The notes beneath the pieces were generated by a model. The model saw nothing but the letters and a program-made list of their open reading frames with translations. It had not been told where the DNA came from and did no database searches. Below are positions 8,012 to 62,299 of a stretch of DNA of 64,000 nt, in pieces. Every line of letters starts with the position of its first letter. Position 1 is the first letter of the stretch. The translations under genes and the position numbers were made by a program. The stretch is from the NCBI RefSeq assembly GCF_006539165.1, contig NZ_BJMM01000007.1, positions 124,001 through 188,000 on the forward strand, in the 5' to 3' direction. This DNA is from Streptomyces cacaoi. Its GTDB lineage: Bacteria; Actinomycetota; Actinomycetes; Streptomycetales; Streptomycetaceae.

Positions 8012-9099
8012 GCGCTGCCCCTTCCCCACCGCACGGCCCCGACGGCCACCCCGGCACCCGTCCCGCACCGGCGGGAGAGGCCGGGTCCGGCACCGCCCCC
8101 GGCGGTGCGGACAACAGCGGCGCGGACAGCGGCGGCGGGGACGGCGGCGCGCTGCTCGGTCCCGCCGAGGTCCGCGAGCTGGCCGCCGCGCTGGGGGTGC
8201 GCCCCACGAAGCAGCGCGGCCAGAACTTCGTCATCGACCCGAACACGGTGCGCCGTATCGTCCGTGCGGCCGGGGTGCGGCCGGACGACGTCGTCGTGGA
8301 GATCGGCCCCGGCCTCGGTTCGCTGACGCTGGCGCTGCTGGAGACGGCCCGCCAGGTGACGGCCGTCGAGATCGACGACGTGCTGGCGGGGGCGCTTCCC
8401 GCGACGGTCGCCGCGCGCCTGCCGGAGCGGGCCGGCCGGTTCACGCTCGTGCACGACGACGCGCTGCGCGTCACCGCGCTGCCGGGCCCGGCGCCGACGG
8501 CGCTCGTCGCCAACCTCCCGTACAACGTGGCCGTTCCGGTCCTGCTGCACATGCTGGCGACGTTCCCCGGCATCGAACGGACGCTGGTGATGGTGCAGTC
8601 GGAGGTCGCCGACCGGCTGGCGGCAGCGCCCGGTTCGAAGGTGTACGGGGTGCCGTCGGTCAAGGCCGCCTGGTACTGCGAGGTGAAGCGGGCCGGCGCG
8701 ATCGGCCGGAACGTCTTCTGGCCCGCGCCGAACGTCGATTCGGGGCTGGTCTCGCTGGTACGCCGCCCGCACCCGCCGCGCACCACCGCTTCCCGCGACG
8801 AGGTCTTCGCCGTCGTGGACGCCGCGTTCGCGCAGCGGCGCAAGACCCTGCGGGCCGCGCTGGCCGGCTGGGCCGGTTCGGGGGCCGCCGCCGAGCAGGC
8901 CCTGCTGGCCGCCGGCGTCTCCCCGCGGGCGCGCGGCGAGTCGCTCACCGTCGAGGAGTTCGCGGCGGTCGCCGAGCACGGCCCCCGGGCCGGTGCCGGC
9001 CCGCGCCCGGAGAAGGAGGCGCCCGGCCCGGCCGGCCGCACGGCCCCGCCGGTCACCGCACACCCAGCACGACAGGACGAGGAGGAGCCCCCCGCGTGA
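8008..9099 (+). CDS. rsmA: 16S rRNA dimethyladenosine transferase RsmA/KsgA
   Basis: 363 residues, longer than the usual ~270-290 because of a ~45-residue Pro/Gly/Ala-rich N-terminal tail and a ~35-residue C-terminal tail. It dimethylates A1518 and A1519 at the 3' end of 16S rRNA. Motifs are GQNFVID, the SAM loop [14 protein letters not shown], and the catalytic NLPYNVAVP. The C-terminal helical domain holds [15 protein letters not shown] 8008 overlaps the rpf stop as GTGA, and its own stop overlaps ispE the same way, so the three genes are probably translationally coupled. Confidence 0.96.
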
Positions 9100-50488: not shown

Positions 50489-51820
50489 GTGGAATCCCCG
50501 GCCACCACGAAAGACACCGCGAGCCGCACGCAGCGGCCGGAAGGACGCCCCGGATACGGGCAGCTCCTGCGCACCGACGGCGCGTGGTCCTTCCTCCTCC
50601 CCGGATTCCTCGCACGCCAGCCCTACGCGATGCTGACGATCAGCATCGTCCTGCTGGTCGAACACACGACAGGCTCCTTCGGCCTGGCCGGCGCCGTCTC
50701 GGCGACCGCCGGTATCGCGATGGCGCTCCTGGCGCCCCAGAGCGGCAAACTGGCCGACCGCTTCGGCCAGGGCGCCGTTCTGGTGCCGCAGGTGTTCCTG
50801 CACGCGCTGACCATCGCTGCGCTCATCACCGTCGCATCGACGGACGCTCCGCTGTGGAGCCTCTTCGTCGCCGCCGTCCCGGCGGGAGCCACGGCACCGC
50901 AGATCAGCCCGATGGTGCGGGCCCGGTGGGCGGCCCGGCTACAGGGCTCCCCGCTGATGACCACAGCTGCGGCCTTCGAGTCGGTGACGGACGAGTTCAC
51001 CTTCGTGGTGGGGCCCGTCCTGGCGACGGCCCTGTGCACCGGGGTGCACCCGGCAGCCGGTCTGATCGCGGAAGCAGCCGTCTCCCTCGTCGGCGGACTG
51101 ATCTTCGCCGCACAGCGCCGCACACAGCCGGCCAGCGCCCGGGCGGGCGACGCACCGGAGAGCGCCCGTTCCGACCAGGCCCGCCCGCAGTCGGCGCTGG
51201 CGGTGCCCGGGGCACGGGTCCTGGTGGTCGCGGTGCTCGGGATCGGCATGGTCTTCGGCGGGATGCAGGTCTCGCTGACGGCGTTCACCGAGTCGATCGG
51301 CCGTCCCGGCATCAACGGACTGATGTACGGGGCGTTCGCGGCGGGCAACATGCTGGCCGCCGTGGCCGTGGGCGCCATCCGGTGGAAGCGCGGCCCGCAG
51401 ACCCGGCTCCTGGCCGGCTACCCGGCCCTCGTCGTGGCCGCCGCACTGGTCGCCGGGACAGCCCAGCTCGACCCGTGGGTCCTCGTCCTGGGGGCCCTGG
51501 GCACGCTGACCGGCCTGTGCATCGCCCCGTGCATGATCACCAGCTTCACCCTGATCGAGACCCTCGTGCCGGCCGGAGCCCGCACGGAGGCGTTCACCTG
51601 GCTGACCGGCGCGATCGCCCTGGGCCAGGCGACGGGCTCGACGGTGGCGGGACAGCTCGCCGACCGTTCCGGCGCCGGCGCCGGGTTCCTCGCCCCGTTC
51701 GCCGGAACGGCGCTCGCCCTCGTGGTGGTCCTCATCTTCCGGAAGGCGCTGCACACGCCGCACAGCGGGCTCGTGGCAGCGCGTGGGGTCGGTCACCGAA
51801 CGACCGTCACGGTGGACTGA
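50489..51820 (+). CDS. MFS transporter
   Basis: About 443 residues with 12 predicted membrane helices. GKLADRFGQGAVL between helices 2 and 3 is the MFS motif A variant, and a charged loop of about 30 residues (QPASARAGDAPESARSDQAR) separates the two halves. It is probably a drug or metabolite exporter; the substrate is unknown. GTG 50489 is chosen for AAAGG 7-8 bases upstream; in-frame starts farther up would add about 50 Arg/Thr-rich residues. Confidence 0.88.
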   Translation: MESPATTKDTASRTQRPEGRPGYGQLLRTDGAWSFLLPGFLARQPYAMLTISIVLLVEHTTGSFGLAGAVSATAGIAMALLAPQSGKLADRFGQGAVLVPQVFLHALTIAALITVASTDAPLWSLFVAAVPAGATAPQISPMVRARWAARLQGSPLMTTAAAFESVTDEFTFVVGPVLATALCTGVHPAAGLIAEAAVSLVGGLIFAAQRRTQPASARAGDAPESARSDQARPQSALAVPGARVLVVAVLGIGMVFGGMQVSLTAFTESIGRPGINGLMYGAFAAGNMLAAVAVGAIRWKRGPQTRLLAGYPALVVAAALVAGTAQLDPWVLVLGALGTLTGLCIAPCMITSFTLIETLVPAGARTEAFTWLTGAIALGQATGSTVAGQLADRSGAGAGFLAPFAGTALALVVVLIFRKALHTPHSGLVAARGVGHRTTVTVD

Positions 51821-51826
51821 CACACG

Positions 51827-51853
51827 GGGAATGCTGCACTATGGAGCGTCGTT
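51827..51853 (+). promoter_or_regulatory. Predicted SigR promoter of the FmdB-like gene
   Basis: GGGAAT (51827-51832), an 18-base spacer and GTT (51851-51853) match the Streptomyces SigR consensus GGAAT-N18-GTT. It lies in the 68-base gap before the FmdB-like gene, immediately against a CIRCE-like dyad. Confidence 0.7.
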
Positions 51854-51878
51854 AGCACTCAACAAGTGAGAGTGCCAG
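51852..51878 (+). promoter_or_regulatory. CIRCE-like element (HrcA operator)
   Basis: TTAGCACTC-N9-GAGTGCCAG compared with the CIRCE consensus TTAGCACTC-N9-GAGTGCTAA: left arm 9/9, right arm 7/9. It overlaps the SigR -10 and the presumed transcription start, and its right arm touches the ribosome site of the FmdB-like gene. Confidence 0.7.
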
Positions 51879-51888
51879 GAGGAAGAAC

Positions 51889-52260
51889 GTGCCGACCTAC
51901 CAGTACCAGTGCACCGACTGCGGCGAGGGCCTCGAAGTCGTGCAGAAGTTCTCGGACGACTCGCTCACCGAGTGCCCCAGCTGCGAGGGACGCCTGAAGA
52001 AGGTGTTCTCGGCCGTCGGCATCGTCTTCAAGGGCTCGGGCTTCTACCGCAACGACAGCCGCGGCTCGTCGTCCAGCAGCAGCTCCGGCTCCTCCGGCTC
52101 GTCGTCCTCGGACAGCTCGTCCAAGAGCGGAGGCGACTCGGGTTCGAGCGACTCCTCGTCCTCGTCCTCGTCGACGAGCTCCTCCTCGGACTCGTCCTCC
52201 AGCAGCTCCAAGAGCTCGTCCGACAGCAAGAGCTCGACCAAGGCAGCAGCCTCGGCCTGA
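51889..52260 (+). CDS. FmdB-type zinc-ribbon protein with Ser-rich tail
   Basis: 123 residues. The first 60 (PTYQYQCTDCGEGLEVVQKF, LTECPSCEGRLKKVFSAVGIVFKGSGFYRND) are the FmdB putative regulatory domain with CxxC pairs for one zinc. The last ~60 are almost only Ser, Gly, Asp and Lys in short runs, probably disordered. FmdB proteins are common but their role is unclear. GTG 51889 has AGGAGGAAG upstream. The upstream SigR promoter and CIRCE-like dyad suggest thiol-oxidation and heat-shock control, which fits a zinc-thiolate protein. mtnP follows in the same direction. Confidence 0.9.
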   Translation: MPTYQYQCTDCGEGLEVVQKFSDDSLTECPSCEGRLKKVFSAVGIVFKGSGFYRNDSRGSSSSSSSGSSGSSSSDSSSKSGGDSGSSDSSSSSSSTSSSSDSSSSSSKSSSDSKSSTKAAASA

Positions 52261-52419
52261 GCGCCCCAGCGGCCCGACCGCCCCGGCACCGCGGAAGCTG
52301 TCCGCTCACCGGGGCGCGGGGCCCTGAGCCCGAGCGCGCGAGCGGTCCGGCCCTCCCCCGTCCGCACACCTGTACCCGCGCACTGCCCGGGCACGGACGA
52401 GGGCCCTAGGCTGAGCCGC

Positions 52420-53256
52420 ATGAGTGAACAGGCAGAGATCGGCGTCATCGGCGGTTCCGGGTTCTACTCCTTCCTCGACGACGTGACGGAGATCACCGTC
52501 GAGACCCCCTACGGACCGCCGAGCGATTCCCTGTTCCTCGGGGAGACGGGCGGCCGCCGCGTCGCCTTCCTCCCCCGGCACGGCCGCGGCCACCACCTGC
52601 CCCCGCACCGCATCAACTACCGCGCGAACCTCTGGGCCCTCCGCTCCGTAGGCGTGCGCCAGGTGCTCGGCCCCTGCGCCGTCGGCGGGCTCCGCCCCAA
52701 GTACGGCCCCGGCACACTCGTCGTCCCCGACCAGCTGGTGGACCGCACGAAGGGCCGCACCCAGAGCTACTTCGACGGCGAACCGCTCCCGGACGGCACC
52801 GTTCCGCCCGTCATCCACGCCACCTTCGCCGACCCGTACTGCGAAACGGGACGCGATGCAGCGCTGCGTGCCGCCCGCGGACGGGCCTGGGAAGCCGTCG
52901 ACGGCGGAACCATGTGCGTCATCGAGGGCCCCCGCTTCTCCACCCGCGCCGAATCCCGCTGGCACGCCGCCCAGGGCTGGGACGTCGTCGGCATGACCGG
53001 CCACCCCGAAGCCGTCCTCGCCCGTGAACTGGGCCTGTGCTACGCCTCGTTGGCGCTGGTGACGGACCTCGACGCAGGCGCGGAAACCGGAGACGGCGTG
53101 TCCCACGAGGAGGTTCTGCGGGTGTTCGGGGAGAACATCGCCCGGCTCCGGGACGTCCTCTTCGACGCGGTACGCCACCTGCCCGCCTCCGACGCACGCG
53201 CTTGCCACTGCGACGCGGCGCTCGGCGGGCAGGACACGGGCTTCGCACTCCCCTGA
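52420..53256 (+). CDS. mtnP: S-methyl-5'-thioadenosine phosphorylase
   Basis: 278 residues, type 2 nucleoside phosphorylase fold. It splits methylthioadenosine into adenine and methylthioribose-1-phosphate. Motifs are IGVIGGSGFYSF, FLPRHGRGHHLPPHRINYRANLWAL with the phosphate-binding RHG, EGPRFSTRAES and GMTGHPEAVLARELGLCYASLALVTDLDAG. MTA and MT-inosine specificity cannot be fully separated from sequence. ATG 52420 begins directly before the first strand. It may be co-transcribed with the FmdB gene 160 bases upstream. Confidence 0.94.
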   Translation: MSEQAEIGVIGGSGFYSFLDDVTEITVETPYGPPSDSLFLGETGGRRVAFLPRHGRGHHLPPHRINYRANLWALRSVGVRQVLGPCAVGGLRPKYGPGTLVVPDQLVDRTKGRTQSYFDGEPLPDGTVPPVIHATFADPYCETGRDAALRAARGRAWEAVDGGTMCVIEGPRFSTRAESRWHAAQGWDVVGMTGHPEAVLARELGLCYASLALVTDLDAGAETGDGVSHEEVLRVFGENIARLRDVLFDAVRHLPASDARACHCDAALGGQDTGFALP

Positions 53257-53631
53257 GCACGCCCTCCGGTTTCCGCCCGCTTTCACCGGGATCCGACCGC
53301 GAGCAGACTGCGAGCTGAGCCGTTCCGCCTCGCCTCACCTCGCCTCCGGACCGTCTCTTCCGACTTCGGGGGCGCCTGCCTGCCACCGACGCCGGCGGGG
53401 CACGCCTGGGCCCGATCGCCCGCAGCGCGGGCCCGGTGAGCCGGTGAGCCGGTGAGCCGATTCTCGCCCGGGCAGGAGCGGCCAGGGCCGGGATTCACGC
53501 TCGCGAGTGACGAGGTTTTCCACAGCCGCCCGCTCATCCACAGAATTCGGCGGCGTTCAGCAGGAATCGCCGGGTCGGGGCACCTTGGCGCACGAGACCT
53601 GAACCAAGCGGCTTCCTCGCGATGGCTGGTG
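53257..53631. other. Intergenic region with short repeats
   Basis: 375 bases. CCGGTGAG is tandemly repeated three times at 53433-53456. TTTTCCACA (53516-53524) and TCATCCACA (53534-53542) resemble DnaA boxes. No gene is convincing here. Confidence 0.5.
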
Positions 53632-54210
53632 GTGACCGCCGTGCCCCGAACCGGACCTCGACCCCACTCCCCGGGCCCTTCTCCCGCCCGTGCTGCTCCT
53701 CGCGCCCCTGTCCCCGGTTTCGCACCGATCCGGCCGCCGGGAGGGCGACGGCGCCTGCTGCGACGCGGAACCGCCGGGCGACGCAGGGCCTTCGCTGCTG
53801 CCCTTGCCGTCTGCACTGCCGGGCTCGCCACCACGGCTCCCGGCTGGAGCGACCGCTCGGCCGTCGGTCACGACGCGAGCACCGGCACCGACCCGGGCGA
53901 TGAGAGATCTGTCACACCGCGGGCTTCCGCTGAATCTCCGGTGTCGGCACCGATCCGGATCGCAGACGCCGCCACAGTCCGCTTGTTGAGCCCGGGCGAC
54001 TGCGTCGACGTGCTCATGATCGGTTCCGAGGACACTTCTGCCCGGGTCGTGGCCTCGTCTGTCCGAGTGGCCCATGTGCCGAAGTCCGGCGACACTGGGC
54101 CGGGCGACGGAGCCGACGGAGCGCTGATCGTGGTCTCGGTGCCACGGCGGACGGCGACGGTCCTCGCCGGGGCGGCAGCCGACTCCCGGCTGGCGGTGAC
54201 CCTGTGTTGA
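53632..54210 (+). CDS. SAF-domain (RcpC/CpaB-like) membrane-anchored protein
   Basis: About 192 residues. A Pro/Arg-rich N-terminus (1-55) is followed by one hydrophobic segment (AFAAALAVCTAGLATTA) and an external C-terminal domain (about 115-192) with LLSPGDCVDVLMIG and ARVVASSVRVAHVPK, resembling the RcpC/SAF beta-clip of pilus-assembly CpaB proteins. No pilus genes are nearby; in streptomycetes such a gene commonly precedes mscL (recollection). GTG 53632 or GTG 53641 could start it; neither has a strong ribosome site. Confidence 0.72.
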   Translation: MTAVPRTGPRPHSPGPSPARAAPRAPVPGFAPIRPPGGRRRLLRRGTAGRRRAFAAALAVCTAGLATTAPGWSDRSAVGHDASTGTDPGDERSVTPRASAESPVSAPIRIADAATVRLLSPGDCVDVLMIGSEDTSARVVASSVRVAHVPKSGDTGPGDGADGALIVVSVPRRTATVLAGAAADSRLAVTLC

Positions 54211-54369
54211 TCCCCAACGGGTCCCGTGGCCTGCCCCGCCGTGCCCGCCGGTCCACCCCTCCCGGCCGCGCGAACGCCCCTCGGTGCTCACGCCTGCCGC
54301 TCGGTCCGTGCTCCGTCCGCCTCCCGTTCGCCGAAACCGTCGTCACATGGTTCTGGAAGAGGCTGTCCG

Positions 54370-54909
54370 TTGAGCACTACGACTCCGCCCCCGGAGAAGA
54401 AGAGCATCCTGGCCGGGTTCAAGGAATTCCTGATGCGCGGCAACGTGGTCGAGCTGGCCGTTGCCGTCGTCGTCGGAGCCGCCTTCAGCAAGATCGTCGA
54501 TGCTGTCGTGCAGGGCTTCATCAACCCGCTGGTCGGTGCCATCGGGACGCAGGACCTGGACAAGTACCACTCCTGCCTGAAGGGCTCGTGCAAGGTGGGC
54601 CCGGACGGCACGACAACCGGAGTGCTGCTCAACTGGGGCCCGGTGCTCAGCGCCTCGCTGACGTTCCTGATCACGGCAGCGGTCGTGTACTTCCTGATGA
54701 TCCTGCCCATGAACAAGTACAAGGAGCGGCAGGCCGCGAAGGCGGAGCCGGTGGAGGTGCCCAAGACCGAGGTCGAGCTGCTGACCGAGATCCGCGACGC
54801 GCTGATCACCCAGCGCACGGCGGAGGACGAGCCCGGCTCCCAGGCTCAGGCCACCGTGGCGCCGCAGCGCGAAGGCGGCGTGAGCACGGAGAAGCAGACC
54901 GACGCCTGA
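54370..54909 (+). CDS. mscL: Large-conductance mechanosensitive channel
   Basis: 179 residues, longer than the usual ~130-150 because of a charged C-terminal tail (GSQAQATVAPQREGG). ILAGFKEFLMRGNVVELAVAVVVGAAFSKIVDAVV is the N-helix plus TM1 with the glycine-rich gate, and the second helix is SLTFLITAAVVYFLMILP. It releases solutes on hypo-osmotic shock as a pentamer. TTG 54370 is chosen: GAGG lies 7-8 bases upstream and the protein begins STTTPPPEKKS. Confidence 0.94.
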   Translation: MSTTTPPPEKKSILAGFKEFLMRGNVVELAVAVVVGAAFSKIVDAVVQGFINPLVGAIGTQDLDKYHSCLKGSCKVGPDGTTTGVLLNWGPVLSASLTFLITAAVVYFLMILPMNKYKERQAAKAEPVEVPKTEVELLTEIRDALITQRTAEDEPGSQAQATVAPQREGGVSTEKQTDA

Positions 54910-62272: not shown

Positions 62273-62299
62273 AACGGCTGGAATCCGGACTAAATTCCC
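62273..62299 (-). promoter_or_regulatory. SigR promoter of hrdD
   Basis: Read on the minus strand: GGGAAT (62299-62294), an 18-base spacer and GTT (62275-62273), an exact consensus match. It lies about 80 bases before the hrdD start. hrdD is an established SigR target in S. coelicolor. Confidence 0.9.

Follow-up and report, generated by a model that had tools for sequence, protein, structure and literature searches.

We find that the region upstream of an FmdB-family gene in a 64,000-nt stretch of the Streptomyces cacaoi genome (hereafter the window) is very probably the control region of the Streptomyces orthologue of ruc, in which HrcA gates a SigR promoter interlocked with a housekeeping-like promoter, and whose product would be a chaperone that is active when oxidised. 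That two regulators converge on this one control region is well supported. Directly visible in the DNA are the elements themselves, the way they are spaced and conserved, and the genes encoding HrcA and SigR (Table 1). The original prediction had placed a GGGAAT-N18-GTT motif ahead of an FmdB-like gene, with a CIRCE-like dyad beginning inside its -10 element, and this description was correct to the base.

Table 1. Features of the control region and adjoining genes, numbered by position in the window.
Feature	Position	Strand	Sequence, basis or remark
Second-promoter -35-like element	51813-51818	+	TGGACT; TKGAC pattern in relatives; putative function
Stop codon of upstream MFS (transporter) gene	51818-51820	+	Overlapped by TGGACT
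SigR -35	51827-51832 (core 51828-51832)	+	GGGAAT, core GGAAT; consensus match, kept in Streptomycetaceae
Second-promoter -10-like element	51837-51842	+	CACTAT; in SigR spacer, 18 nt after TGGACT; putative function
SigR -10	51851-51853	+	GTT; 18 nt after GGGAAT; its TT forms operator bases 1-2
CIRCE (predicted HrcA operator)	51852-51878	+	TTAGCACTC-AACAAGTGA-GAGTGCCAG; 16/18 CIRCE arm bases
Shine-Dalgarno	51877-51883	+	AGGAGGA; first two bases are the last two of the CIRCE right arm
GTG start of ruc orthologue	51889	+	10 nt after dyad
ruc orthologue, FmdB-family zinc-ribbon protein, 123 aa	51889-52260	+	PF09723, TIGR02605
S-methyl-5'-thioadenosine phosphorylase gene, downstream neighbour	52420-53256	+	Profile scan

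Membership of the HrcA/CIRCE system is recognised by a TTAGCACTC-N9-GAGTGCTAA dyad at a promoter, and such a dyad occupies 51852-51878, where it is the sole match in the window to the CIRCE consensus at three or fewer mismatches; 100 shuffles of the sequence gave none. The GGAAT/C-N18-GTT promoter that defines SigR/SigH targets lies at 51828-51853. By itself the promoter motif is weaker evidence than the dyad, since GGGAAT-N16-20-GTT occurs five times in the window against 0.44 expected. A scan of 51700-52500 returned no terminator-like site and no strict sigma-70-like promoter. Elsewhere in the window, a GGAAT-N18-GTT motif at 62273-62298 on the minus strand stands 79 nt before an ORF for an HrdD/SigB-like principal-type sigma factor (62193 downwards). 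The hrdD gene is described as a SigR target in S. coelicolor (PMC9205884), and this second site therefore serves as a useful internal check of the SigR motif. The third GGAAY-N18-GTT of the window is at 8537, also on the minus strand.

The genome containing the window (8.44 Mb) carries the exact inner dyad GCACTC-N9-GAGTGC in five places, which the flanks and profile scans of neighbouring proteins assign to groES-groEL1 (two sites upstream), groEL2, hrcA-dnaJ and ruc (one site each). With one mismatch allowed, the inner dyad was found in 32 places versus 27 for the control, so that one-mismatch dyads are not above chance and only the exact ones are informative. A scripted search for GGAAY-N17-19-GTT with its start no more than 300 nt from any other exact CIRCE site of this genome returned nothing, and the SigR-CIRCE composite occurs in it once. 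The ruc site thus has the same dyad as the rest of the Streptomyces HrcA/CIRCE regulon (groES-groEL1, groEL2 and hrcA-dnaJ) in the same genome, whereas those sites are without a SigR motif; it has GGAAT-N18-GTT in common with the S. coelicolor SigR regulon, but its -10 element is embedded in a repressor operator. Both regulators are encoded in the same genome, with hrcA matched by TIGR00331 at 335 bits (cut-off 197) and SigR by TIGR02947 at 359 bits (cut-off 251.55). An RsrA-like ORF, recognised by eye from an HxxxCxxC stretch in its translation, adjoins sigR. A GGAAT-N18-GTT motif stands 359 nt ahead of the sigR match, which fits autoregulation of this gene.

The encoded protein matches Zn_ribbon_8 (PF09723) at 57.9 bits and TIGR02605 (FmdB family zinc ribbon protein) at 74.6 bits, and it is the only protein of this genome with a PF09723 match. 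Its N-terminal zinc ribbon places cysteines at residues 8, 11, 29 and 32, the positions mutated in M. tuberculosis Ruc (C8S C11S and C29S C32S; PMC7448276), and is followed by a C-terminal tail of 64 residues, 44 of them serine, a composition that may indicate disorder. A search for solved structural relatives returned none up to E = 1. The gene is the orthologue of M. tuberculosis Rv0991c/Ruc, which is described as a zinc-coordinating, disordered protein that upon oxidation becomes a chaperone and promotes folding by the Hsp70 system (PMC7448276). The original prediction had called the protein one of unknown function; as the orthologue of a redox-regulated chaperone (PMC7448276), it can no longer be described in that way. 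Downstream of the methylthioadenosine phosphorylase gene, 53452-54909 holds an ORF that resembles RcpC/CpaB, with a Pfam score short of the cut-off, and then mscL, and ORFs resembling these two by eye also lie 3' of ruc at loci L258 and L259.

In M. tuberculosis, ruc is repressed by HrcA and induced by SigH, the SigR orthologue, through overlapping binding sites (PMC7448276). It is one of four genes reported there as HrcA-repressed (PMC7448276), the targets of this repression being listed elsewhere as groES, groEL1, groEL2 and Rv0991c (PMC8223512). Rv0991c appears with a value of 40.3 +/- 12.2 in a table of SigH-dependent genes, in a paper that gives the SigH consensus as GGAAYR-N17-18-GTT (PMC4803200); for SigR the consensus is stated as GGAAT-N18-GTT (PMC2375139) or GGAAT-N18-19-GTT (PMC9205884). 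The Streptomyces locus has in common with M. tuberculosis ruc the protein family, Cys 8/11/29/32 and a SigH/SigR-type promoter overlapping an HrcA operator, and its product is serine-rich like Rv0991c, which is so named in PMC4803200. Unlike M. tuberculosis ruc, it adds the interlocked TGGACT-N18-CACTAT and merges the right arm of the dyad with the Shine-Dalgarno sequence. The register may differ as well, since in three family f4 genomes taken as Mycobacterium-like (L195, L196 and L214) the GTT abuts the dyad, starting 3 nt before it with no sharing of its TT, a comparison that is drawn from these genomes and not from the M. tuberculosis promoter itself.

Because M. tuberculosis ruc is described as HrcA-repressed and SigH-induced, the composite that was first noticed is the Streptomyces form of a published arrangement. 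The predicted fusion of a SigR-type promoter to an HrcA operator is borne out by the presence of sigR, the RsrA-like ORF and hrcA, by the conserved geometry described below and by this parallel. The idea of an HrcA that strays from chaperones was rejected on the basis of the M. tuberculosis HrcA targets and the CIRCE of hrcA-dnaJ in this genome, and with it went the surprise that the original prediction attached to HrcA acting outside chaperonin genes. The arrangement mostly extends known biology, its novelty being limited by the published orthologue; the stacking of housekeeping-like and SigR promoters over one HrcA operator and the change of sigma factor by family may be new. Neither stacked promoters over an HrcA operator nor a sigma swap across families was found in the literature searched, mostly at title level, and our searches returned no paper linking SigR, HrcA, CIRCE and Streptomyces. 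In the portions of the Streptomyces papers that were searched, genes of the SCO318x/SCO319x range (guessed from hrdD = SCO3202) were not found, and within SCO31x PMC2375139 names only SCO3162; HrcA is named in two of these papers, not together with the ruc orthologue.

Conservation was assessed in a named set comprising the best 80 of 499 loci in a protein search, picked by similarity of the protein and not of the promoter; the closest named relatives of the protein belong to Streptomyces. A dyad with at most three mismatches lies upstream in 79 of these 80 loci, the exception being Aeromicrobium (L086), and 67 of the 80 have GGAAY-N17-19-GTT near the dyad. For the 69 named loci counted as Streptomycetaceae from record titles, the dyad is present at two or fewer mismatches in all 69 and GGAAY-N17-19-GTT sits on top of it in 66. 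GGAAA replaces GGAAY in L026, L062 and L073, all named Streptomycetaceae, and also in L255. Across 88 distinct Streptomycetaceae stretches, no variation occurs at the 18 arm positions of the dyad. The original prediction had held that absence of the dyad or of the SigR hexamers in close relatives would count against it; when the upstream regions of these orthologues were compared, the dyad was kept in all 69 and the SigR motif in all but three.

The gene itself is widespread. At E <= 0.001 the Ruc N-terminus found a match in 292 of the 296 class genomes, in 60/60 of the order to which S. cacaoi belongs, in 61/61 of the order of genome G070 and in 57/61 of family f4, with the caveat that some matches are weak (e.g. 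G351 and G407) and perhaps represent another FmdB protein. The f4 genomes with no such match are G297, G322 and G338 (genus g107, 2.3-2.9 Mb) and G291. Upstream regions were taken from the best-scoring loci plus picks among the matches listed, mostly one or two per genus, in a non-random sample that spans 36 of 54 numbered families. After dropping L096 (a copy of the window) and excluding L001-L006 and L087-L094 (other sites or genes of the S. cacaoi genome), 262 loci were scored, and in 251 of them a dyad with at most four mismatches precedes the ruc orthologue. The 11 misses are L086, 4/5 loci in f22, 1/1 in f5, two in f4 (one with five mismatches), 2/5 in f43 and 1/2 in f49, and 35 of the 36 families have at least one ruc locus with the HrcA operator. 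Nine ruc orthologues are without an upstream CIRCE (L086, L101, L127, L137, L146, L163, L212, L232 and L235); since four of these belong to f22 and one to Aeromicrobium, HrcA control seems to have been lost in parts of the class. Ten further genomes of f25 and f29 stand outside the 262-locus counts. One of their loci (L312) was not recognised as ruc by the script; among the nine that were, a dyad at four or fewer mismatches is present in seven, with zero mismatches in L308, L310 and L311, and missing from L316 and L317. None of these nine ruc loci has the SigR motif.

The sigma input under this operator is less uniform. GGAAY-N17-19-GTT overlaps or abuts the dyad at 108 of 230 distinct dyad sites, and 100 of the 108 use a single register, with an 18-nt spacer and GTT beginning one base before the dyad. 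Tallied by family over 261 loci (L216, the second copy of one genome, was dropped, and named loci were counted apart), the overlapping motif is found in 29/30 loci of the family of S. cacaoi (f1), 23/50 of f4, 3/4 of f41, 1/2 of f42, 1/13 of f15 and 1/4 of f16, and in none of the remaining 30 families of the sample, many of which were represented by a single locus. In f43 (3/5), f4 (2/50), f33 (1/2) and f41 (1/4), a SigR motif was seen instead at 9-20 nt upstream of the dyad. At sites where no SigR motif overlaps the dyad, TTGAC or TGGAC lies 27-32 nt before it in 46 of 122, compared with 1.5% of shuffles, and 44 of the 46 are at -29 or -28. The fuller pattern TKGAC-N17-20-YANNAT, which looks like a housekeeping promoter, occurs at 6/9 named and 35/83 remaining non-SigR sites (out of 234 distinct sites overall), and for 36 of the 41, base 1 of the dyad is also the final T of YANNAT. 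At over half of the non-SigR sites, neither promoter type is clearly recognisable. These distributions suggest that the operator is the constant part, and that the promoter abutting it is SigR-type or housekeeping-like (TGGACN-N18-CANNAT) depending on the family.

Within Streptomycetaceae the two promoter types appear to be combined. TKGAC-N17-20-YANNAT, ending 9-10 nt before the dyad, is present at 86 of 86 distinct sites (shuffles, approximately 0.001 per locus), and at 82 of them the SigR promoter is interlocked with this housekeeping-like one ahead of a single operator; the four sites that are without GGAAY carry it too. The spacer between TGGACT and CACTAT is 18 nt in the window and 17 nt in most relatives, and across the 88 distinct stretches the four fixed bases of CANNAT (C, A, A, T) show 98-99% conservation. 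Its -10 element sits 10 bp, or about one helical turn, further upstream than in the non-SigR families. We consider this second promoter probably real in Streptomycetaceae. The original prediction of one promoter is therefore probably incomplete, given the interlocked element at all 86 sites.

The composite itself was searched as GGAAY-N18-GTTNGCACT-N10-GAGTGCY in the 296 genomes of the class. It occurs in 35 of them, once each, including 30 of 31 Streptomyces, and in 32 of the 35 cases it lies 11-27 nt before a listed ruc start. The occurrence at L257 was set aside, as it adjoins, by eye, an antisense groES-like frame. At L260 (f25) and L261 (f29) the composite precedes hsp20 genes (PF00011). 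Among 78 f29 genomes it is found in two, L261 and L307, the latter again before hsp20, and in none of the remaining 76. The three hsp20-linked composites, from three genera and two families, share the same register. One genome with an hsp20 composite (G233) has a ruc locus with a dyad and without a SigR motif (L315).

We infer how binding, start sites, induction and protein activity in Streptomyces would fit together as follows. In unstressed cells HrcA bound to CIRCE would cover the SigR -10 element and the predicted start site and keep the gene off, a repression that has been demonstrated for the M. tuberculosis orthologue (PMC7448276), and from the dyad it would block both holoenzymes. Heat or unfolded protein would lift HrcA, while thiol oxidation would free SigR from RsrA to drive GGAAT-N18-GTT. 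TGGACT-N18-CACTAT probably gives expression whenever HrcA leaves, with SigR adding more under oxidation, and the oxidised protein would then prevent aggregation of unfolded proteins and help DnaK to refold them. In M. tuberculosis, an hrcA mutant has abundant Ruc at 37 C and still more after heat shock, and a second transcription start of ruc has been placed 19 nt ahead of the depicted one (PMC7448276). With a mutant that is high when unstressed and higher with heat shock, and with two starts, these data are better fitted by HrcA gating of two or more promoters than by a strict need for both signals.

If only the SigR promoter and CIRCE were real, then TGGACT and CACTAT would be a by-product of the end of the transporter gene and of the close kinship of Streptomyces, an explanation that we regard as unlikely while giving it more weight than any other alternative. 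Part of the conservation of TGGACT may indeed be coding, because the element extends over the 3' end of the transporter ORF: at 77 of the 86 distinct sites TGGAC runs into the stop TGA of the transporter gene, giving TGGACTGA, and 89 of the 90 loci that have this sequence keep the upstream frame open. In Streptomycetaceae the second promoter also reaches just 7 of 12 when compared with TTGACA/TATAAT, the strict sigma-70 scan of 51700-52500 does not report it, and it is absent in f4, a family that likewise has the SigR composite and where the TKGAC pattern was found at 0/48 sites and a looser sigma-70 score at 5/48, close to shuffles. However, TGGAC is kept where TAA or TAG follows (4/86) and where no stop is the directly following triplet (5/86), and the CANNAT half is non-coding and conserved above most of the remaining spacer. 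The like element at non-SigR ruc sites (6/9 named, 35/83 remaining) is followed by varied triplets. Furthermore, at each of the three f41 sites with a SigR motif a sigma-70-like pair that scores at least 8 of 12 is present too, and L303 (family f42) has both promoters nested in a different register.

A different question is which sigma factor reads the SigR-type promoter. Were it read mainly by another ECF sigma of the SigR/SigE group, with HrcA control as proposed, the genome would offer candidates, as the SigH_actino profile has 15 matches in it, one of them above cut-off, and SigR promoters are reported to be capable of remaining active without sigR (PMC6767563). Against this, the site fits the SigR consensus and not the SigE core, described as AAC/TC (PMC6767563), and the M. 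tuberculosis orthologue is SigH-dependent (PMC7448276, PMC4803200), which makes this exchange of sigma factors improbable. If the promoter-like string and the dyad had come together by chance, the five GGGAAT-N16-20-GTT strings of the window would help to explain it, but both elements and their register are conserved across Streptomycetaceae, and the reversed composite pattern gave 0 matches in the 296 genomes. We rejected this explanation, whose probability we judge to be negligible, on the shuffled controls for the dyad (0 in 100) and for SigR overlap (12 of 9600 shuffled upstream sequences had the motif, under a wider placement window), together with conservation of the composite.

The reading of an HrcA-gated SigR promoter interlocked with a housekeeping-like one can be widened to the ruc region in general, as a fixed HrcA operator whose sigma inputs are swapped or stacked, so that one repressor gates two competing holoenzymes. 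This wider proposal, which we hold to be evenly balanced, takes in the -10 element on operator base 1 in many families, the shift in Streptomycetaceae and the hsp20 composites. For the biology of these bacteria, the result carries the M. tuberculosis circuit into Streptomyces, whose harmless laboratory strains allow deletion and assay of sigR, hrcA and ruc, and it points to an HrcA operator that stays fixed at ruc while the sigma input differs among families. The interlocked promoter would provide a testable reason for the published rise of Ruc in unstressed M. tuberculosis on loss of HrcA alone, although f4, the kind of family that contains M. tuberculosis, did not show the same element.
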